Source: a virus. From it: DNA of 64,000 bases. Shown in pieces: positions 43,034 through 56,433 of this stretch (its first letter is position 1; each line of letters begins with the position of its first letter). The DNA lies in IMG/VR virus record IMGVR_UViG_3300008448_000016, positions 43,237 through 107,236 of that record; one strand, written 5' to 3'. The position numbers and the translations under genes are program-made. Below the pieces are notes generated by a model. The model was given only the letters and a program-made list of their open reading frames with translations, was not told where the DNA came from and ran no database searches.

Positions 43034-44629
43034 TTAATTTGTTTTTTTATCAATACTTAATTCCCATCTCGTATTACCACAATCGTATATTCTATATATT
43101 TTACGTTCAAACATAATTTCTTTTTCAGTTTTATTAGAATCAAATCCTTCTTTTATTAAAGATGATTTTTTAAAATTAAACCTATAATGTCTTTTATTTC
43201 CAATAACATACCAATAGTTTGGTTTTGATTGAGATATAAATTTGAAATTTAACTTTTCATATAAATCGCCCTTAAATAACCTAATATCAGAATATGAAAT
43301 TATTTTTTTAGGGTTATTTATTTTTATAAAATTTTTTAATAGTTTTGATGCCGACCCAATAACATTAGTATTTAATTTATTACAAAATCTATTTAATTCC
43401 CATTCATCTGTTTTACCTCCCATTATAATTCTCCCTTTTGAGAATGTCATAATAGAAACCATTTCGTCTTTAAAAAATAAACCTAATCTAACTCTTGAGT
43501 TAACGGATCCTTGAATATGGTTTTTCTCCAAAAAATCCTTACACTCTTTAAAACCAACTTCTCTTATTTCACATTTTCTAGCAAAAATTTTATTTTCAGA
43601 TATTTTAATTTTATTTTTTATTATTGATTTTATAATTTCTTGATTGTATATCCATTCATCTTCAAAAATATGAATTAATTCAATATTCTCACCCTCACAT
43701 TTTATTGTTTTTTCTAAATGATAAAATGGTGTTTTAAATAACTCATTATGCCAATATAAACCATTAAATTCTATACCTAAATTATAATCCGGAATAAAAA
43801 CATCAACTTCAGTTTTTTTATTTTTTAATTTAAAATTTGTTAGATATTTAACACCTATAACATCTAAAAAATCACAAATCTCATTCTCATATCCACTCCT
43901 TTGTTTAAACCCTAAAGGATTACAATTTAAACAAACATCATAGTTTCTCTTATATCTTTCATATAATAATTGTTTTGTTAATTCAGACTTATTACCACAT
44001 TTAGGACAATCAATTATAACAGATCCTTTTTTCACCTCATTAAAATATATTTCGGAATATAAATTCTTATATTCTTGAGTGATTCTATTGTGATAATTAT
44101 TTGATTTAGAATAATTATCTACACCATATTTTAATTCGCAAGTTTTTTTATATTTTTCAATATTATTGTAATTTTCATTACCATAATTAATTAACTTTGT
44201 GTATTTACTTTTCTCAATGTTATTATAATTTTCATCACCATAATTAATTAACTTTGTGTTTTTTTGTTTTTTAACAAATTCTTTGTGTTCTGGATAAAAG
44301 TCCACACCATATTTATCATTAAATGTCTTTTTTTGTCTTTTGATTAATTCTTCTTTTGAAGAATTGGCACAAGATAAAGAACAAAAATCACCATATGGTT
44401 TGTCAAATCTGTTTCTAAATTTAACTTCATTACCACACTTAAAGCATTTTGGTCTTTCTTTTAACTTATGAAAATAAAAATAAAGTTTCTCCTTGAAAGT
44501 TAGATCTTGATTTAAAGTTTTTGAGTATTCAATTATACTATTATATAATTCTAACTCATTTTTCATTAACCATTTTTCGTTGGTCTTATATCCTGATTTA
44601 TTATTGATTGTGAAAAATGAAAAATCCAT
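43034..44629 (-). CDS. VSR-like homing endonuclease with zinc-finger N terminus
   Basis: 531 residues. Residues about 55-85 hold a Cys4-type finger (CFKCGNEVKF ... CSLSC). Residues 130-185 contain repeated K-Y-G-x-(D/E)-N-Y-x-(N/K)-(I/S) modules typical of DNA-binding regions of free-standing phage endonucleases. A second zinc ribbon (CPKCGNKSEL ... CLNC) follows. Residues about 245-335 hold the EDxHD/PD-(D/E)XK-like core: YENEICDFL, TEVDVFIPDYNLGIEFNGLYWHNE and ELIHIFEDEW, as in the VSR-related homing nuclease family represented by Hef. The gene sits between the tube and hub genes with its own TATTTATT box, and neither neighbour is interrupted, so it is an intergenic mobile gene. Two 57-bp direct repeats (about 44171-44284) encode the tandem K-L-I-N-Y-G-(D/N)-E-N-Y-N-N-I-E-K modules. 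Confidence 0.82.
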   Translation of the reverse strand: MDFSFFTINNKSGYKTNEKWLMKNELELYNSIIEYSKTLNQDLTFKEKLYFYFHKLKERPKCFKCGNEVKFRNRFDKPYGDFCSLSCANSSKEELIKRQKKTFNDKYGVDFYPEHKEFVKKQKNTKLINYGDENYNNIEKSKYTKLINYGNENYNNIEKYKKTCELKYGVDNYSKSNNYHNRITQEYKNLYSEIYFNEVKKGSVIIDCPKCGNKSELTKQLLYERYKRNYDVCLNCNPLGFKQRSGYENEICDFLDVIGVKYLTNFKLKNKKTEVDVFIPDYNLGIEFNGLYWHNELFKTPFYHLEKTIKCEGENIELIHIFEDEWIYNQEIIKSIIKNKIKISENKIFARKCEIREVGFKECKDFLEKNHIQGSVNSRVRLGLFFKDEMVSIMTFSKGRIIMGGKTDEWELNRFCNKLNTNVIGSASKLLKNFIKINNPKKIISYSDIRLFKGDLYEKLNFKFISQSKPNYWYVIGNKRHYRFNFKKSSLIKEGFDSNKTEKEIMFERKIYRIYDCGNTRWELSIDKKTN

Positions 44630-46207: not shown

Positions 46208-49200
46208 TTAGATATTCTCAAATGATGCTCCCGTAGGTGTTATATAGAATGTGATATCTATAAATTCTAACGAACGAGTTGGTTTGATGTAAATCTTACC
46301 TGTCATTTGATTTCTATCAAGATCCGCAGTATCTGAAGAAACTGTTACTCGGAAATCATATAAACCTCTATCTCTTCTGATTGAATCCAAAATTGGGTTA
46401 ACCGCATTTAGGAAGTCCTGTCTTACTTGTTCGTCATTTTGATCAAACAATAATCTTACAGAAACCGCAGATATTAATTTACGTGCCTGTAACAATAATC
46501 TTCTTACGTTGATTCTGTCAAGTGCAGATTCTCTAACTTGTAGAGTTTTATTACCCCAAATTACTGTACCAACATCAGAGAAAGTTGCAATTGGGTTAAT
46601 TCTTCCGATATAAAGAGTATCTCTATCTTCTTGAGTTAACTTCTTACGTGCTTTAACTGAATTTACAATACCACGAGTATAACCCGCCGCTGCGAACCAA
46701 GGGAATGCAATATTATCAGTTAACGCCAAGTTTCTCGTTACTTCCGCGGTTGCTGGAATATAAATTTGAGTGTTGTTAACCGTATCACGAGTTAATACCC
46801 AAGGGTAGTAAGTTGCGGTGTAATTAGAGTCAATTCCCGCCTCTTCTAGATTGTCAACCGCCTCTTGTGGGTAAATCAAATTATCTCCACTTGTGGTTGT
46901 TGGAACAAACAAACTGTAGTCAGGAGTTGTTGTAATATACAACGAATCCGCTCTTTCATTTTCAATCATATCAATTGTATCACCAACAAGGTCTGAATTA
47001 TTAACATAATCAATACCAGGAGTTACAAATAAATTGATGTTAACCGCTTCAGGGTTAGAGAATGATCTAATACCCAATAGGTATGCGTAGTAGTCAGTAT
47101 TTGCCCAACTTCTTGTACCATCCCCAAGAGATATTTGTTTAAACGCTCCCCATCCAGTAGCCGTAGGATATCTATCAGTTGCACACGCTCCGTTTAAGAA
47201 TCCTGTTCTACCAAGAACATATCTATCTCCGTTTGTTCTATACTCTCTATAGATATCCCATCCATCAAATCCTCCTTGTACGAACAATGTGAACTTTCTT
47301 GAGAATAATCTATAGTATGGACTTGTTTCATTTGTAGGTTCTGAACTAAACGCCGCGTCACCAACATAGAATCTTGGAGTACCACTTGTTGAGAAAGCAC
47401 TTCCGATTGTTAGTCCACTAGCGTTTTTATCCATGTGATAACCTCTAGTTTTATATGACCATTCGGCACCTTCCAAATCACAAGGAGAAATAGGATTTCT
47501 CTTACCAACATAATCAAAGAAGTCAGAATCATAACCCCAGAAGTTTGACATACCAAGATAAGTTCTTCTTACATTATCACCTCCTGTTGTTGTTGTATTG
47601 TCTCCTCCTGTAGGTAATCCAAATGGTGGGTTGTAAATAACTTCACCAGGGAAATCATATTTGGTTTTGAAAATAGGGAATGGAGATCTTGCTCCCGCAT
47701 ATTCTCTAAATGTAAACCCTTCAAATCCACAAGGTAGAGCATCAACTGGTGCGTCCTCATTCATTTCAACCATAATGAATTTAGAATTCAATTGGTATTC
47801 ACCATCCAATGTACCTACTTTTTTCGCAATGAAGTTATTTTGACTTGGATCCATAGAACAGTTTGTGAATTTCTCAAGAACTGTTGGTGCTGAGTCTGTG
47901 TCAAAATAATCACGAACTAACACTGTAAATGTTTGGTTAGCAAATGAAATATCTGTAATTGAAAGTTTAACTTCAGTGTTTGCAGAATTACCATCAGCAA
48001 TTGTGTAGAACTTAAATAAGTTGTAAACTTTATTACCTCTCAATTCCGAAACAACCCAAGGAGAACTTGGAGATTGGTATCTATCCAAGTACCATCCAAT
48101 GGATGTAGATGAAGCACTTTGTGCTGAGTCCAAAGAAATTAAAGAAGAACTTAAACCTCTAATATATCCTTTTCTATATGCATAATTCAATAGAGATTGG
48201 AATCTTTCTTCCAAGAAAACCGGAACCGTATTTCTTGGTTTACCAAAGTTACTAGTACCAAATACTTTAGTCATGTATTTTGCGTCAGAAGTTGACATTG
48301 AAGTTTCAAAACTAAAGTTGGTTCCTTCATAATTTGTTACATTAACCAAGAATGGTAAGTATGGGTTTTTAGAAACTCCTGAATACGCTCCCGTCATATC
48401 TAAAGTAACATCAGTAATTCCTGTTACTTCCCAAGTTGGATTTGTTCCGTCAGTATAATCTGCAATACCTCTTGATCTTAATGTTGCCACAACTAAATTA
48501 TCATAATCCGTAAATGTGTTTCCTGTGTAGTAGTAAAGTCTACCAATCACACTACCTGAATAACAAGTTGTTATTTCACCAAGGTCTTGTGTTCCACCGC
48601 TTGTGAAATTACAAGGATTACATGGATCATTTACAACAACATTAACCACCCAAGTTGTAGTTGTAGAACCATCTTCGGAAGTTAAAGTGTAGGTAACAGT
48701 TCCCGCAGAGAAATTAACAACAGTTGTATTACTTACTTGTGTTACACTTTCCGCAGTAACTCCTGTTGTACAAGCACTGAATGTCGGTGTTAAAGCCGAT
48801 AAATCACCTGTAAACCCTGAAGGTAAACAAACATTAATTACATTTGTATTGTAATTGATAACACCAGAAGTACCACTAATACTATAATCGTAGAATGACG
48901 CACAATTTGTTGATGTAGTGGTTGCGGTCACACCAGTTACATAACTATAAAATGAAAAACCTGTATAATTTCCATTACCTGTATTATCAAACAATGCGTA
49001 ATACCAAGAATCATTAAGAGGTGAAGTTAAATCAGTATCATCAAATGAAACTGAAGGAACATCAAATCTGTTATTACTTGTTCCTGCAGAAAAAATTGGA
49101 TTTAATATATTATAATCATCAGTATCTATTGACCCAAAGTAGTCAATTATTGTTTGACCTGTAAGAGGATCATCTAATGTAATAATGTCAAAAATAGTTT

Positions 49201-49777
49201 CAGTGATATTATCATTAAGAGATGAGGTTCCCCCATTGAATTGAGTATAAGGTTCTGTTAATATTGATTGAATCTCATCAGGGAATGAATTCAAGAATGA
49301 AATAGTTGTTTGTGAATTATTACACCCACTAAAATCAACTGTAAAATCCAAAGTGTTTGCGGATGTACAAACGAAATCACAATCTACCGTAACACCACTA
49401 GCACAATTAAATCCTACGGTTGCGGGATCAACATTTGCTGTTGTTACAATAGACCAAGAAGGTCCTGCATCATAACCCGATAATCCTAATATTCTGGTTA
49501 CAAATAATTGATTTGATTGTTGTAAATATGATTTAGCGATATATGCTGCCTCATATTTAGGAATTTGAGTATTCACAAATTTTTCAGGTGAAGTTCCTCC
49601 GAAATAAGTTGTAAACTCATCGTAGTTTCTAATGAAGATAGGTTCAAATGCAGGGCCTTTTAAAGTCTCTCCCGCAATACCTAAAGTTGTTACACCAACA
49701 CTTTGAGCCACAAAACTTAAATCTACTTCAGAAGTATAAACACCCGGTGATACAAATACTTTACTGTTAGTTGCCAT
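46208..49777 (-). CDS. 18: Tail sheath protein gp18-like, greatly enlarged
   Basis: 1189 residues against 659 for T4 gp18. The N terminus (VFVSPGVYTSEVDLSFVAQSVGVTTLGIAGETLKGPAFEPIFIRNYDEFTTYFGG) and the C-terminal core (TRGIVNSVKARKKLTQEDRDTLYIGRINPIATF, then a conserved end SLEFIDITFYITPTG) are standard sheath sequence. Between about residues 115 and 430 there is extra Thr/Ser/Asn/Cys-rich beta-sequence. It includes, at about 305-385, a domain of the form INVCLPSGFTGDLSALTPTF, followed by VTYTLTSEDGSTTTTWVVNV, which resembles Ig-like domains (DUF5018 type) of Bacteroidota surface proteins. These would project from the outside of the tail. A second unusual segment (TTTTGGDNVRR) lies near residue 720. 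Confidence 0.88.
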   Translation of the reverse strand: MATNSKVFVSPGVYTSEVDLSFVAQSVGVTTLGIAGETLKGPAFEPIFIRNYDEFTTYFGGTSPEKFVNTQIPKYEAAYIAKSYLQQSNQLFVTRILGLSGYDAGPSWSIVTTANVDPATVGFNCASGVTVDCDFVCTSANTLDFTVDFSGCNNSQTTISFLNSFPDEIQSILTEPYTQFNGGTSSLNDNITETIFDIITLDDPLTGQTIIDYFGSIDTDDYNILNPIFSAGTSNNRFDVPSVSFDDTDLTSPLNDSWYYALFDNTGNGNYTGFSFYSYVTGVTATTTSTNCASFYDYSISGTSGVINYNTNVINVCLPSGFTGDLSALTPTFSACTTGVTAESVTQVSNTTVVNFSAGTVTYTLTSEDGSTTTTWVVNVVVNDPCNPCNFTSGGTQDLGEITTCYSGSVIGRLYYYTGNTFTDYDNLVVATLRSRGIADYTDGTNPTWEVTGITDVTLDMTGAYSGVSKNPYLPFLVNVTNYEGTNFSFETSMSTSDAKYMTKVFGTSNFGKPRNTVPVFLEERFQSLLNYAYRKGYIRGLSSSLISLDSAQSASSTSIGWYLDRYQSPSSPWVVSELRGNKVYNLFKFYTIADGNSANTEVKLSITDISFANQTFTVLVRDYFDTDSAPTVLEKFTNCSMDPSQNNFIAKKVGTLDGEYQLNSKFIMVEMNEDAPVDALPCGFEGFTFREYAGARSPFPIFKTKYDFPGEVIYNPPFGLPTGGDNTTTTGGDNVRRTYLGMSNFWGYDSDFFDYVGKRNPISPCDLEGAEWSYKTRGYHMDKNASGLTIGSAFSTSGTPRFYVGDAAFSSEPTNETSPYYRLFSRKFTLFVQGGFDGWDIYREYRTNGDRYVLGRTGFLNGACATDRYPTATGWGAFKQISLGDGTRSWANTDYYAYLLGIRSFSNPEAVNINLFVTPGIDYVNNSDLVGDTIDMIENERADSLYITTTPDYSLFVPTTTSGDNLIYPQEAVDNLEEAGIDSNYTATYYPWVLTRDTVNNTQIYIPATAEVTRNLALTDNIAFPWFAAAGYTRGIVNSVKARKKLTQEDRDTLYIGRINPIATFSDVGTVIWGNKTLQVRESALDRINVRRLLLQARKLISAVSVRLLFDQNDEQVRQDFLNAVNPILDSIRRDRGLYDFRVTVSSDTADLDRNQMTGKIYIKPTRSLEFIDITFYITPTGASFENI

Positions 49778-51888: not shown

Positions 51889-53655
51889 TTGGAGATTACA
51901 TCAAAAACAATAGAGCAAAAAGCTTTAGACGCACTTGATACATATTCAGGGGCGAATAACTATATTCTATACATTAAATCAAAAAAAGAAAAGAATAAAA
52001 AGTTTTATCCTACAAGAAGTCAATCTGATTATATATTAACTTATTTTGATGTTAAACCAAAAGTTGCTCGTAAATGGGTTGATCTTGATTCTTATTTTGC
52101 AAAGAAGTTTGCTGAAGAAAAATATCTATTAGAAACACCTGAAAAAGTATACGTTGAAAAACTTTTAGTTGAAAAGGAAAAGTCTTATCATATTTGGGGT
52201 AAATTTTTTGAGAAAGATCAGTTATCAGAATTTTGGGTTCCAAAATCGGCATTAATTAAAACACACACCATAGAAAAAGTTGACATTGATTATTCCAAAT
52301 ATAATCATAGACCATTGTTATCCCACCAAGTTGAGGCGGTGGAAAAATTGGTTGGGTCAAAAAGATTCATTTTGGCGGATGATATGGGTTTAGGTAAAAC
52401 TACATCCACAATTGTTGCATCATTAGAAACAGGTGCAAAAAAAATATTAATTGTTTGTCCATCATCATTAAAAATAAATTGGCAAAGGGAAATTGCAAAT
52501 TATACCGACAGATCCGTTTATATTGCTGAAAGTAAGAATTTTTCATTGGATCATGATTTTGTTATTGTAAATTATGATATTTTAAAGAATTTTTATGACA
52601 CAGGAAAAGACAAGGAAAATAGTTTGATTTACAAATACAATCCTGATTTGGTTATTATTGATGAAGCTCATTATATACAAAATGCTCAAGCACAAAGAAC
52701 TAAATTGGTTAATAGTTTTAGTAAAAGTGCAAATCGTTTGTGGTTGTTAACAGGAACACCAATGACTTCAAGACCTATGAATTATTTCAATTTATTGAGT
52801 TTGATTGAGAGTCCCGTAGCACAAAATTGGATGGCATATGCTATTAGGTATTGTCAAGGATATCAGTTCAAAGCAGGAAAAAGAAAAGTATGGAACGTAA
52901 CGGGAGCATCAAATCTTGAGGAATTAAGAGATAGAACGTCAAAACAAATTTTAAGAAGGTTAAAAGAAGAGGTGTTAGATCTACCTGAAAAAATAATCAC
53001 CCCAATCTATTTGAGAGTAAAATCAAAAGATTATGAAGAAATGATGGGTGAATATTATGAATGGTATGAAAACAAAAAAGAAGAATCCACATCTTTAACA
53101 ATTCAGTTCAGTAAATTAATGAAAGCAAGAAAAATAATTGCCAACGAAAAAATAAAACATACAATTGAGGTTGCCGAAAATATTATTGAGCAAGGTAAAA
53201 AAGTTATTATATTTACAAACTTTACCGACACATTACAAATGATACATAATCATTTTGGAAAACAATCTGTTTATTTAGATGGTAGTTGTACAAAACCTCA
53301 AAGACAATATGCTGTTGACCAATTCCAAGAAAACGATAAAATAAAAGTTTTTGTTGGTAATTTAAAAGCGGCTGGTGTTGGGTTAACTCTAACCGCAGCT
53401 GAAGTTGTAATAATGAATGATTTATCTTTTGTTCCTGCCGAACATTCACAAGCGGAAGATAGAGCTTATCGTTATGGTCAAAAGAATAATGTTTTAGTTT
53501 ATTACCCTTTGTTTGAAAATACGATAGAGGGTGCAATCTATGATATCCTTAATAATAAGAAACAAATTATCAACACCGTAATGGGGGATGATTTATTAAT
53601 GAACGGTGGGGATGTTGTTGAGGAGATCTTAAATTCAATACATAGAAAACGTTAA
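51889..53655 (+). CDS. SNF2-family DNA helicase/translocase
   Basis: 588 residues with a TTG start (TTG GAG ATT ACA); no ATG is nearby. Residues 1-130 are an accessory N-terminal domain. The SNF2 motor follows: the Q-like region RPLLSHQVEAVEKL, motif I LADDMGLGKTT (about 164-174), motif II IIDEAHYIQN (about 257), motif III LTGTPMTSRPMNYFNLLSL, and in the second lobe VIIFTNFTDTLQMI, QFQENDKIKVFVGNLKAAGVGLTLTAA and motif VI HSQAEDRAYRYGQ. The Q-x-x-x-R-x-x-R-x-G-Q box is specific to SNF2/SMARCAL1-like proteins. It may replace T4 UvsW in fork remodelling. It is the first gene of the plus-strand block, and no TATTTAT box is seen directly upstream. Confidence 0.87.
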   Translation: MEITSKTIEQKALDALDTYSGANNYILYIKSKKEKNKKFYPTRSQSDYILTYFDVKPKVARKWVDLDSYFAKKFAEEKYLLETPEKVYVEKLLVEKEKSYHIWGKFFEKDQLSEFWVPKSALIKTHTIEKVDIDYSKYNHRPLLSHQVEAVEKLVGSKRFILADDMGLGKTTSTIVASLETGAKKILIVCPSSLKINWQREIANYTDRSVYIAESKNFSLDHDFVIVNYDILKNFYDTGKDKENSLIYKYNPDLVIIDEAHYIQNAQAQRTKLVNSFSKSANRLWLLTGTPMTSRPMNYFNLLSLIESPVAQNWMAYAIRYCQGYQFKAGKRKVWNVTGASNLEELRDRTSKQILRRLKEEVLDLPEKIITPIYLRVKSKDYEEMMGEYYEWYENKKEESTSLTIQFSKLMKARKIIANEKIKHTIEVAENIIEQGKKVIIFTNFTDTLQMIHNHFGKQSVYLDGSCTKPQRQYAVDQFQENDKIKVFVGNLKAAGVGLTLTAAEVVIMNDLSFVPAEHSQAEDRAYRYGQKNNVLVYYPLFENTIEGAIYDILNNKKQIINTVMGDDLLMNGGDVVEEILNSIHRKR

Positions 53656-53683: not shown

Positions 53684-55084
53684 ATGAAAGTATCTATTAA
53701 ACATATCAAATGCCCTATGACAAAGGAAAGTAGGGATCTTGCAAAAGTTTTTATTGAATTCTTACAAAAGAGATTTCCTCTTAATCACGATATTACAGTT
53801 TTATTTTTAGGCGAAAGAACTGGTACTATGACAACAGGTAGTAGAAATAATGATCACGTTTTAAAAGTATTAACAAAAAAAAGATTAAATAGAGATATTT
53901 TAAAAACATTATCTCACGAGTGGGTTCACGAATACCAACATTCAATTTTAGGTAGAGAAAGAGGCCCAGATATTGGTGGTCAAAATGAAGATGAAGCTAA
54001 CTCATATGCGGGAAGATTAATGAAGATTTTTGAGAAAGAACACCCTGAATTTACTGAATTAGTTTACGAAGGTTTTAAAAATACATTAAAAAGAATTGAT
54101 TTAATCTCTGAACAATTTGTTAAAAAAGATAAAGAATTAATACAAGAACAATTCCTATTAGAAATGAAAAAAATAGGAATAGATAAATTACCCTATTCTT
54201 ATTCGGCATTAAAACAATTTGTGGATCCCGAAACAATGGATATTCACTATAACAAACATTACAAAGGATATGTAAAAAAACTTAACGATGCCTTGTCAAA
54301 TAAGAAAGGTGAAATGGAACTTGAGGATATAATTAAAACCATAAGTAAGTTTGATACTAAAGTTAGAAATAATGCTGGTGGAGCATTTAATCATGCATTA
54401 TTTTGGAAAATGTTATCACCAAAAAAACAAACACCAAAGGGAGATATCTTGGAAAGAATATTAAAACAATTTGGTTCTTTTAAGAAATTCAAAGAAGAAT
54501 TTAACAAAGTCTCAATGGATAATTTTGGATCGGGTTGGTGTTGGTTAGTTCTAACGAAAACAAATAGATTAAAAATAATGTCAACACCAAATCAAGACAA
54601 TCCTTTAATGAATATCATTGATGGTGGTGGATATCCATTATTAGGTCTTGATTTGTGGGAACACGCATATTATTTGAAATATAGAAATAAAAGAGATCAA
54701 TATATTAAAAATTTTTGGGATTGCGTGAATTGGGAATTCGTTAATAGTCTTTATGACTTGAAAACAAACAAAAAAGAAACAATTAATGAATCGGTTGATC
54801 GTAGAGAAAAATCGGCATTAAAATGGTTAAACAAGAAATTTGGTGATCTTACACCGGTGGTTGTTGACAATAGAACATATTATATTGATGAGGACAGAAA
54901 ACCATTATTTTACTATTCCCAGGATTCAAAATATAAGGATATTTATATAAATTACGAAAGAATTTGGTCGTTTTTTAATTCTATTTTTGGTCTGAATACC
55001 TTGCAAACACAGGAGATTCTGAAGGTATGGTTGGAAGAGACCTATAATTTAAAGGGGGTCACACCACCTTTTTGGAAATTATGA
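53684..55084 (+). CDS. Metallopeptidase-superoxide dismutase fusion protein
   Basis: 466 residues in three parts. Residues 1-160 contain TLSHEWVHEYQHS, a zincin H-E-x-x-H at 78-82 with Glu residues at 102 and 104 (NEDEA) as candidate third ligand. Residues about 163-355 are a complete Fe/Mn superoxide dismutase: IDKLPYSYSALKQFVDPETM; metal ligands His188 (DIHYNKHYKGYV), His237 (AFNHALFW), Asp323 and His327 (DLWEHAYYLKY); Tyr196; and GSGWCWLV with NQDNPL (Gln304 at the Mn-type position). Residues about 370-466 are a small domain (INESVDRREKSALKWLNKKF, DEDRKPLFYY) ending WLEETYNLKGVTPPFWKL. SOD converts superoxide to peroxide and oxygen. The 3' end is the first unit of the repeat array at 55030. 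The combination is unusual and its purpose is unknown. Confidence 0.85.
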   Translation: MKVSIKHIKCPMTKESRDLAKVFIEFLQKRFPLNHDITVLFLGERTGTMTTGSRNNDHVLKVLTKKRLNRDILKTLSHEWVHEYQHSILGRERGPDIGGQNEDEANSYAGRLMKIFEKEHPEFTELVYEGFKNTLKRIDLISEQFVKKDKELIQEQFLLEMKKIGIDKLPYSYSALKQFVDPETMDIHYNKHYKGYVKKLNDALSNKKGEMELEDIIKTISKFDTKVRNNAGGAFNHALFWKMLSPKKQTPKGDILERILKQFGSFKKFKEEFNKVSMDNFGSGWCWLVLTKTNRLKIMSTPNQDNPLMNIIDGGGYPLLGLDLWEHAYYLKYRNKRDQYIKNFWDCVNWEFVNSLYDLKTNKKETINESVDRREKSALKWLNKKFGDLTPVVVDNRTYYIDEDRKPLFYYSQDSKYKDIYINYERIWSFFNSIFGLNTLQTQEILKVWLEETYNLKGVTPPFWKL

Positions 55085-55255
55085 AGATCAGATCTTGTTG
55101 GAAGAGACCTATAATTTAAAGGGGGTCACACCTCCTAAAATTGTGTACCGCGGCTTTAAAATGGTTGGAAGAGACCTATAATTTAAAGGGGGGGGCACGC
55201 CAGTTGTGTCTCGTATGTTATAAAAATAACAGTCGGAGGAAACCTTATAATTTAA
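55030..55255. CRISPR. CRISPR-like mini-array, three 36-bp repeats plus degenerate terminal repeat
   Basis: Repeat 1 at 55030-55065 and repeat 2 at 55097-55132 are identical over 36 bp, from 5' GTTGGAAGAGACC to 3' GGGGGTCACACC. Repeat 3 at 55164-55201 matches except for a longer G run (8 instead of 5) and CACGCC at its end. Repeat 4, about 55232-55255, is degenerate and truncated (GTCGGAGGAAACC, then TTATAATTTAA). The period is exactly 67 bp for the first two intervals. Spacers are 31, 31 and about 30 bp with no similarity to one another. The RNA could fold a GACCU/GGGGUC hairpin. Repeat length, spacing and a decayed last repeat all fit CRISPR, and the 5' GTTGGAA and 3' GGG..TCACA.C remind me of type VI-B (Cas13b) repeats of Bacteroidota. 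No cas gene is in the window, and repeat 1 is also the coding end of the preceding gene. Transcription sense is unknown. A coding-derived tandem duplication is the main alternative. Confidence 0.55.
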
Positions 55256-55284
55256 CCCACAAATAATTAGTTTTTATTTAGTTG

Positions 55285-55294
55285 GATATTTATA
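55285..55294 (+). promoter_or_regulatory. GATATTTATA box before gp13-like gene
   Basis: Plus-strand GGATATTTATA 14 nt upstream of the ATG at 55309, between the repeat array and the neck gene. Confidence 0.5.
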
Positions 55295-55308
55295 TAAAAA
55301 CATTTATT

Positions 55309-56433
55309 ATGTCTATAATACCAGAACCAGAAAGATCTGACTTATATAAAAAAATCAGACATTTATTAGGAGCACCATTGAGGGGTGTAGAATTGGAGGA
55401 TGAACAAATGGATACATTATTGGAGTTTTCAATTGATCAGTATTCTCAATATGTTCACGATTGGTTGATTGAATCTCAATGGACAAGTTTATATAACTTA
55501 AACGTTGACACGCAATCTGTTGCAAGAGCGTTCGTATCTAAAAGCTTGGATTATGAAACAAGATACACATATGCGTATTCCAAAATTGTTGGTTTACAGG
55601 CAGGTGGAGAATGGGAATTAAAGAAAGACTATATTCAGTTGGTTCCAAATCAACAAATATATGAGATACCCGCAAACAGAGAAATTAATGAATTATTATG
55701 GTTTACACCGGCAGAGTTAAATAATATGTTATTTGATCCTTGGACATTTGGTGGTATTGCTGGAGGTGGTATTTCAGGCCCTGCGGGATACGCTCAACTT
55801 GGTAATATGTCAGGATCATATTTTATGATGCCAGCATTTGATATGTTATTAAGAATGCAAGAAATTAATATTCAAAGAAGAATTATTGCGGGAGATTTAA
55901 CATATAGAATCACTGCATTACCGGGAGGGAAGAAAGCAATACATTTAATGAACACACCGGGAGGTAAATTTGATTTTGGTAATTCAACTTTAGCAAAGGG
56001 TAAAGTTTGGTATTGGTATTATGACACAACTGAAGGAGGAAGAGATCAATGTTTAAAGGATAACCCTGATATTATCAAATTACCTTCCGATGTTCCAATT
56101 GATAAATTAAGTTGGGTTGATCTTAATCACCCTGCGCAGATATGGGTAAGAAACTGGTTTATTGCAAGTTGTAAAGAAACACTATCAAAAGTTAGAGGTA
56201 AATATAGTGGTAATCTTAAAACACCCGATAGTGAATTAACAATGGATTACCAATCATTAGCAACTGAAGGTAAAGATGAAAAAACCAAATTAATTGAGGA
56301 ATTAATTGGTGCTGAAGGTAAATTAACAAGATTAAGACCTGATAAGGTATTAGAGCGTGAGGCGTTAATTGCAGAAAATTTAAATAAGCAATTAAAGTTC
56401 AGAGCCATGCCAAGACAAATTTATGTAATATGA
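55309..56433 (+). CDS. 13: Neck protein gp13-like
   Basis: 374 residues from the ATG at 55309; the frame extends upstream to a TTG at 55282 but that runs through the TATTTATA box. The N-terminal helical region IRHLLGAPLRGVELEDEQMDTLLEFSIDQYSQYVHDWLIESQW and later VPNQQIYEIPANREINELLWF, plus the C-terminal RNWFIASCKETLSKVRGKYSGNL, match the T4 gp13-like neck family (T4 gp13 is 309 residues). gp13 closes the portal vertex for tail joining. A Gly/Met-rich loop (GGIAGGGISGPAGYA, near 155) is an insertion. The next gene overlaps by 4 nt (ATGA). Confidence 0.75.
   Translation: MSIIPEPERSDLYKKIRHLLGAPLRGVELEDEQMDTLLEFSIDQYSQYVHDWLIESQWTSLYNLNVDTQSVARAFVSKSLDYETRYTYAYSKIVGLQAGGEWELKKDYIQLVPNQQIYEIPANREINELLWFTPAELNNMLFDPWTFGGIAGGGISGPAGYAQLGNMSGSYFMMPAFDMLLRMQEINIQRRIIAGDLTYRITALPGGKKAIHLMNTPGGKFDFGNSTLAKGKVWYWYYDTTEGGRDQCLKDNPDIIKLPSDVPIDKLSWVDLNHPAQIWVRNWFIASCKETLSKVRGKYSGNLKTPDSELTMDYQSLATEGKDEKTKLIEELIGAEGKLTRLRPDKVLEREALIAENLNKQLKFRAMPRQIYVI

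Follow-up and report, generated by a model that had tools for sequence, protein, structure and literature searches.

In bacteriophage T4 the internal proteins IPI, IPII and IPIII and the Alt protein are targeted by a capsid-targeting sequence (CTS), processed by the prohead protease gp21, which cuts after Glu at L/I-X-E, and ejected; a 10-residue capsid-targeting sequence is enough to pack foreign proteins, nucleases included, in T4, and each internal cargo protein carries a single short N-terminal propeptide (all from the available portion of PMC9026906). From T4 gp23, 65 residues are removed (PMC9958956, available portion). The ejection proteins of the giant phages phiKZ and SPN3US bear multiple Glu sites, at the motif S/A-x-E and within propeptides, the propeptide being the part that is cut off, and the available portions of the three sources mention no superoxide dismutase (SOD) among the packaged proteins of these phages (PMC5694885, PMC10052503, PMC9026906). 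A virion-packaged SOD is described for giant eukaryotic viruses, where it is a Cu,Zn-SOD (PMC9405923, available portion). A T4-like Campylobacter phage has an efficiency of plating (EOP) of 0.30 on a sodB mutant, which indicates that superoxide can limit T4-like phages (PMC6024767, available portion). Phage-encoded Fe/Mn SODs also occur in PA5oct-like jumbo phages and in Vibrio phage 2.275.O. The literature searched, in which few subscription papers were covered, yielded no description of an SOD polyprotein or of a packaged phage SOD.

Here we analyse a gene in a 64,000-nucleotide stretch of viral DNA (henceforth referred to as the window; positions 43,237 to 107,236 of IMG/VR record IMGVR_UViG_3300008448_000016) that encodes a zincin-like domain, an SOD and a small C-terminal module in one chain. 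The protein has [L/I]-x-E sites and a diversity of putative cargo in common with the T4 internal proteins, but several enzymes are strung together in it with the predicted sites between them. It differs from the phiKZ and SPN3US ejection proteins both in its motif ([L/I]xE) and in that the sites lie between enzyme domains. With the giant viruses it would share the idea of a virion-carried SOD, although enzyme family and virus group are unrelated.

Results

A three-part gene at a fixed locus of T4-like phages

The gene content of the window is that of a T4-like myovirus, with genes for tail sheath, baseplate and neck as well as UvsX-like, DnaB-like and family B polymerase genes. In its tail sheath gene (46208-49777, 1189 aa) the best matching stretch comprises only about the last 290 residues. 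The features of the locus are listed in Table 1. An earlier note on this DNA, made from the letters alone, had described a zincin-like metallopeptidase, an SOD and a third domain fused in one phage protein, and the open reading frame, Pfam, fold comparisons and relatives confirm this. Both SOD halves are the only parts of the protein above the Pfam cut-off; the N- and C-terminal parts have no Pfam match, and a PHROGs search gave no significant match for any part. An AF2 model built from a 54-row alignment (mean pLDDT 77, pTM 0.43) shows three ordered parts separated by stretches with pLDDT below 50 (residues 132-172 and 363-371). As the pTM is low, the packing of the domains against each other is not predicted.

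Table 1. Features of the polyprotein locus in window coordinates (↓ marks a possible or predicted cut).
Feature	Position	Strand	Remarks
SNF2-type DNA helicase, upstream neighbour	51889..53655	+	31/32 loci; remaining locus L062 truncated there
Polyprotein gene (zincin-SOD-module)	53684..55084	+	ATG start, 466 aa
Zincin-like domain, possibly of IrrE/SprT-like fold	53684..54067	+	Residues 1-128; fold, conservation, stand-alone copies
HEWVH motif, codons	53915-53929	+	Residues 78-82
Zincin-SOD linker	54044..54178	+	About residues 121-165; low model confidence (132-172 pLDDT <50)
E129, possible site VYE↓G	54068..54070	+	E in 34/34 rows; P3 V/I/M, weaker than L/I
E143, predicted site LISE↓Q	54110..54112	+	E 34/34; P3 L/I 34/34
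E160, predicted site FLLE↓M161, directly before SOD	54161..54163	+	E 34/34; P3 L/I 34/34; kept without zincin
Mn-type Fe/Mn SOD	54164..54769	+	About residues 161-362; Pfam, fold, ligands
E369, predicted site TINE↓S, joint to C-terminal module	54788..54790	+	363-371 pLDDT <50
C-terminal 97-aa module, alpha-beta4-alpha2	54791..55081	+	Residues 370-466; interchangeable multi-copy family
47-nt repeat, 3 copies, 67-nt spacing	55023..55203	+	Last part of module gene repeated past stop codon
Head-tail adaptor Ad2 (neck), downstream neighbour	55282..56433	+	32/32 loci

A scan of IMG/VR gave 162 pattern hits, 153 relatives and 80 retained loci. At every one of these (80/80) a single frame encodes both zincin and SOD, although contig ends cut a few of them. 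Four of the contigs, from different samples, encode the protein of the window at 99.8-100% identity over the part present, and divergent versions occur at 76 further loci. Mis-assembly of two genes, which the earlier note had named as grounds for rejection, is thereby excluded, since independent contigs carry the same protein and the fusion recurs at every retained locus. The 80 loci and further scans likewise rule out a singleton; the fusion is standard in a large group of freshwater T4-like phages. Relatives number at least 523, more than were retrieved, and include UniProt A0A6J5L953, a 501-aa protein labelled ‘superoxide dismutase’ that is 65% identical over the matched part. At 95% identity, 33 rows represent the 80 loci and the window; with L107, found via its tail, they make up the set referred to below as the 34 rows.

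The position noted earlier, in a helicase/neck region, also held: the locus is fixed across 32 non-redundant loci between the helicase and Ad2, and the nearest upstream gene is the helicase, not a head gene. Sites resembling the T4 late promoter TATAAATA were uninformative (23 in the window against 17.6 expected), and none lies just upstream of the polyprotein gene.

The SOD has a complete Mn-type active site

The two Pfam SOD families match at residues 166-245 (Sod_Fe_N, 6.5e-22, 78.2 bits against a cut-off of 27) and 251-355 (Sod_Fe_C, 2.1e-40, 137.4 bits against 20.9). The catalytic set is complete, with metal ligands H188, H237, D323 and H327, gate residues H192 and Y196, and the Mn-type residues G233 and Q304, bearing out the ligands, Tyr and Mn-type Gln read previously from the sequence. 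We take these to be the equivalents of H26, H81, D167 and H171 (ligands), H30 and Y34 (gate) and G77 and Q146 of E. coli MnSOD, respectively. In the AF2 model the SOD part superimposes on Sphingobacterium MnSOD 5a9g with Z 27.4 and rmsd 1.9 A over 197 residues (Foldseek E 4e-20). The ligands and second-sphere residues are kept family-wide, the few regex misses being changes at non-ligand positions. An unformed metal site, the other ground for rejection given in the note, finds no support, because the ligand set is complete and the modelled fold matches MnSOD. By sequence and predicted fold the domain is near-certain to be catalytic, and both the Gln and the Gly of Mn-type enzymes are present.

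In an SOD tree the phage rows and L162, which is probably a phage contig itself, form one side of a long branch with 100/100 support, opposite mostly Bacteroidota sequences. The nearest cellular SODs are mostly from Bacteroidota, a hint at the phage host. Bacterial MnSODs (Sphingobacterium 5a9g/6gsc, Bacteroidota) have the fold, the ligands and about 45% identity in common with the phage SOD, but have neither a zincin nor an interchangeable tail, and no linkers that bear the sites. With the PA5oct-like phages (30% identity) and Vibrio phage 2.275.O the match is limited to the SOD part, and no zincin match was found there.

The N-terminal domain is zincin-like

The H-E-x-x-H motif on which the earlier assignment was based, HEWVH, is invariant across the aligned rows: H78, E79, H82, E102 and E104 are the same in 35/35, stand-alone copies from cyanophages and other phages included, and E102 or E104 is a possible third metal ligand. 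Proteins of IrrE-N-terminal-like and SprT-like type from phages were among the nearest folds in BFVD (IrrE-like E 1.5e-5), and a PDB profile search reached SprT at E 0.3 only. When the zincin alone was used for scanning, 73 of the 79 ORFs classified among the matches listed had an SOD; the other six ORFs, again among the matches listed, represent five distinct sequences, two of them cut by a contig end, one missing the start of the SOD by deletion and two being stand-alone zincins of 128-129 aa that terminate at the E129 boundary. A further stand-alone relative of 132 aa, annotated as hypothetical, is gp257 of the freshwater cyanophage S-SRM01 (NC_070963, 164797-165195), whose gene adjoins DnaB helicase and MazG genes.

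The C-terminal module is one of several interchangeable tails

Modelled alone, the C-terminal module is a separate alpha-beta4-alpha2 unit (pLDDT 87.8). It has no named match: the best PDB fold (PfMCM N-terminal domain, Z 3.8, rmsd 3.9 over 84 residues) is too weak, a PDB profile search gave nothing below E 0.5, and in BFVD only uncharacterised phage proteins fell below E 0.001. The small C-terminal domain of the earlier description is thus present as a separate module, but is not a fixed part of the protein. Among the 34 rows a tail is absent right after the SOD in 11, and 23 carry an extension of one of four kinds, namely the small module (the window and others), type 1 (about 330 aa), type 2 and the type of L034, with small modules and type 2 combined in a single chain in L005 and L006. 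Elsewhere the module occurs as stand-alone genes, in tandem gene arrays and attached to another phage protein at its tail, and a further copy lies on the contig of the window (G000:1226-1501) next to GIY-YIG-like genes. A 296-kb phage contig (G002) has it in 14 places, several of them tandem. At L129 (1540-3342) it forms the C-terminus of a DHH-like protein with the leader MKKLIKE↓S; the Pfam DHH match (E 0.004) is below the cut-off.

Several of the swapped tails, all in relatives outside the window, look like PD-(D/E)XK nucleases from their sequence patterns, which were assigned by eye: type 2 has invariant E142, D184 and Q195-V-K197, and type 1 has E95, P113/D115 and S125-C-K127. Neither type has a Pfam match or a PDB sequence match. 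In the window, the 47 nt that end the module gene recur as two extra copies after the stop codon; of the loci examined, only the near-identical contigs contain the exact core. The repeats may have been left behind when a module was duplicated in tandem, or may be a recombination repeat.

The joints between domains carry a conserved prohead-protease motif

Both linkers are predicted to be disordered and bear [L/I]-x-E, the T4 gp21 cleavage motif; the joints are the stretches of low pLDDT. Across the 34 non-redundant rows the zincin-SOD linker has a motif density of 7.17 per 100 residues, about 12 times that of either folded domain (0.62 in the N-terminal domain, 0.61 in the SOD); since the rows are related, such counts measure conservation and not independent gains. 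The zincin-SOD alignment has nine invariant Glu columns, and only at E143 and E160, both in the linker, is P3 Leu or Ile in all 34 rows. The linker thus shows an invariant P1, a restricted P3 and a variable P2, and most of its other positions vary. At the C-terminal joint [LI]xES is present in 20 of the 23 extended rows (shuffled mean 1.5, maximum 7/23 in 2000) and the broader [LIV]xE[SNAM] in all 23 (shuffled mean 4.3, maximum 10). This joint is common to the four unrelated kinds of extension, and the same KKKETINE↓SV joins the small module to the unrelated DHH-like protein. The stand-alone small modules of L139-L142 are without the site. An upstream [LI]xE is also found in 14 of 62 bacterial SODs (79 loci compared, 17 not parsed), mostly in exported leaders.

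As in phages with T4-type internal proteins, gp21 and gp23 occur within the SOD-polyprotein group: gp21 (PF03420) was found in 6/15 and 3/7 of the relatives' records and gp23 in 7/15, all of these records possibly being fragments. One gp21-bearing record (G006) encodes a polyprotein 100% identical to that of the window over residues 1-462. Neither gene was found on the 107-kb contig of the window, which is a fragment. The gp23 leader has the site LINE↓AT near residue 60 in all six clusters read.

No short targeting tag ending in [L/I]xE, of the kind carried by T4 internal proteins, is present at the N-terminus of the zincin form, and such tags are not enriched on the contig of the window (3/79 genes, 1.7 when shuffled), in a looser test (27/141 at the N-terminus against 23/141 deeper in) or among head clusters (5/67, not significant).

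The site ahead of the SOD persists where the zincin is missing

A scan with a stand-alone SOD gave 70 ORFs passing the SOD test, 59 with the zincin and 11, of four types, without it. Three of the latter (L388, L389 and L390) occupy the same locus and have a leader of about 20-45 residues that ends at the SOD in FLSE↓M, ILSE↓A and IIQE↓K, respectively. In L389 and L390 the place of M161 is taken by Ala or Lys, and [LI]xE is nevertheless kept. The frame of L389 (3881-6532) runs to 884 codons, with two different nuclease-like domains after the SOD and [L/I]xE joints.

The stand-alone SOD of L327, on a 222-kb viral contig with gp21, does have a tag, its N-terminus reading MNLKIVDILRE↓G. On the matching contig of 31 kb (contig 154, with L325 and L326) in a Fluviicola metagenome-assembled genome (MAG), 10/41 genes carry a helix-like tag ending in [L/I]xE. 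For these tags the shuffled mean was 1.3 (maximum 5), two were counted when the test was moved 45 residues further in, and a bacterial control gave 1/315. Ten proteins searched against Pfam gave no match above the cut-off, and the tagged genes are a candidate set of packaged cargo. No gp23 or gp21 that would mark contig 154 as phage DNA was found in the MAG; the IMG/VR viral contig of 222 kb, with an SOD identical to that of contig 154, has gp21.

Discussion

The polyprotein is real and widespread, and combines ordinary SOD chemistry with an unusual precursor. The earlier interpretation is supported in part. It stands for the three-part fusion and for a role that could lie in packaging or in countering oxidative stress, and the break between domains raised there deserved attention; the fusion is, however, no singleton, the third domain is not fixed, and self-processing is disfavoured. 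Because the joints resemble sites cut by the phage's own head protease, the pieces are probably packed into the head and delivered, and we rate a head-packaged, prohead-protease-cut polyprotein that is delivered with the DNA at slightly better than an even chance. The protein would be made late and enter the prohead core, where a gp21-type protease would cut after Glu at E143, E160 and E369, and perhaps at E129, releasing three products: the zincin, the C-terminal module and a mature SOD that begins at M161 and is about 200 residues long. These would exit with the DNA, and before any phage gene is expressed the SOD would clear superoxide from the surroundings of the incoming genome; each of the interchangeable C-terminal pieces would act as an effector of its own. 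Several results speak against this reading, namely the missing N-terminal tag of the zincin form, the failure to find gp21 or gp23 on the fragmentary contig of the window or any enrichment of tags there, the helicase as nearest upstream gene, the stand-alone small modules that have no site, and the bacterial SODs with an upstream [LI]xE.

The same gene could instead be an auxiliary metabolic gene (AMG) whose product stays uncleaved inside the infected cell and detoxifies superoxide there, [L/I]xE then reflecting a helix-rich linker that has no protease function. Viral SODs are listed as AMGs against reactive oxygen species (PMC12542629, available portion), the gene is co-directional with that of the helicase, the zincin form is without an N-terminal tag, and the zincin homologue of S-SRM01 is a plain protein beside a DnaB helicase. 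A helix-rich linker would, however, hardly account for a fixed P1 and P3 around a free P2, nor for one joint shared by four unrelated kinds of extension and a DHH-like protein, and the conserved place directly before a neck gene also argues against this reading, which we regard as unlikely although the most serious of the alternatives. That the SOD is mainly a structural or metal-binding head domain with incidental catalysis would fit its retention beside the neck gene at all loci, but the preservation of every metal ligand and second-sphere residue across the family makes this highly improbable.

Two further explanations concern how a free SOD might arise. The earlier note had raised self-processing, for which the zincin's intact HExxH with invariant Glu and its possibly SprT/IrrE-like fold would speak; M161 is invariant in 34/34 rows and placed where a stand-alone SOD would begin, as expected of an internal translation start. 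Both are disfavoured because relatives without the zincin retain [LI]xE ahead of the SOD, in two cases with Ala or Lys at the would-be start. The site moreover agrees with the gp21 motif, gp21 being a serine protease with cleavage after Glu, and a gp21-type prohead protease is the likelier cutter, leaving self-cutting by the zincin improbable. An internal start would in addition leave the conserved P3/P1 pair and the C-terminal joint unexplained, and is in our view a very distant prospect.

Cleavage in the head and delivery with the DNA may extend to a broader proposal, to which we give somewhat less than an even chance: T4-like phages, probably infecting Bacteroidota, would carry a string of effectors, comprising a protease, an SOD and swappable nucleases or modules, that is head-packed, cut by the prohead protease and co-injected. 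If true, these phages would have a general cargo format with exchangeable parts, new enzymes being attached through [L/I]-x-E-S joints and the SOD-nuclease-nuclease chain of L389 being its extreme form, and the [L/I]-x-E-S rule would find injected effectors as yet unknown in metagenomic T4-like phages. Several enzymes would be freed from one precursor by the prohead protease, as from a viral polyprotein, at cleavage points that are exactly predicted. Phages would then deliver an antioxidant enzyme together with their DNA, which would tie in with the lower plating of a T4-like phage when the host SodB is lost (PMC6024767, available portion).
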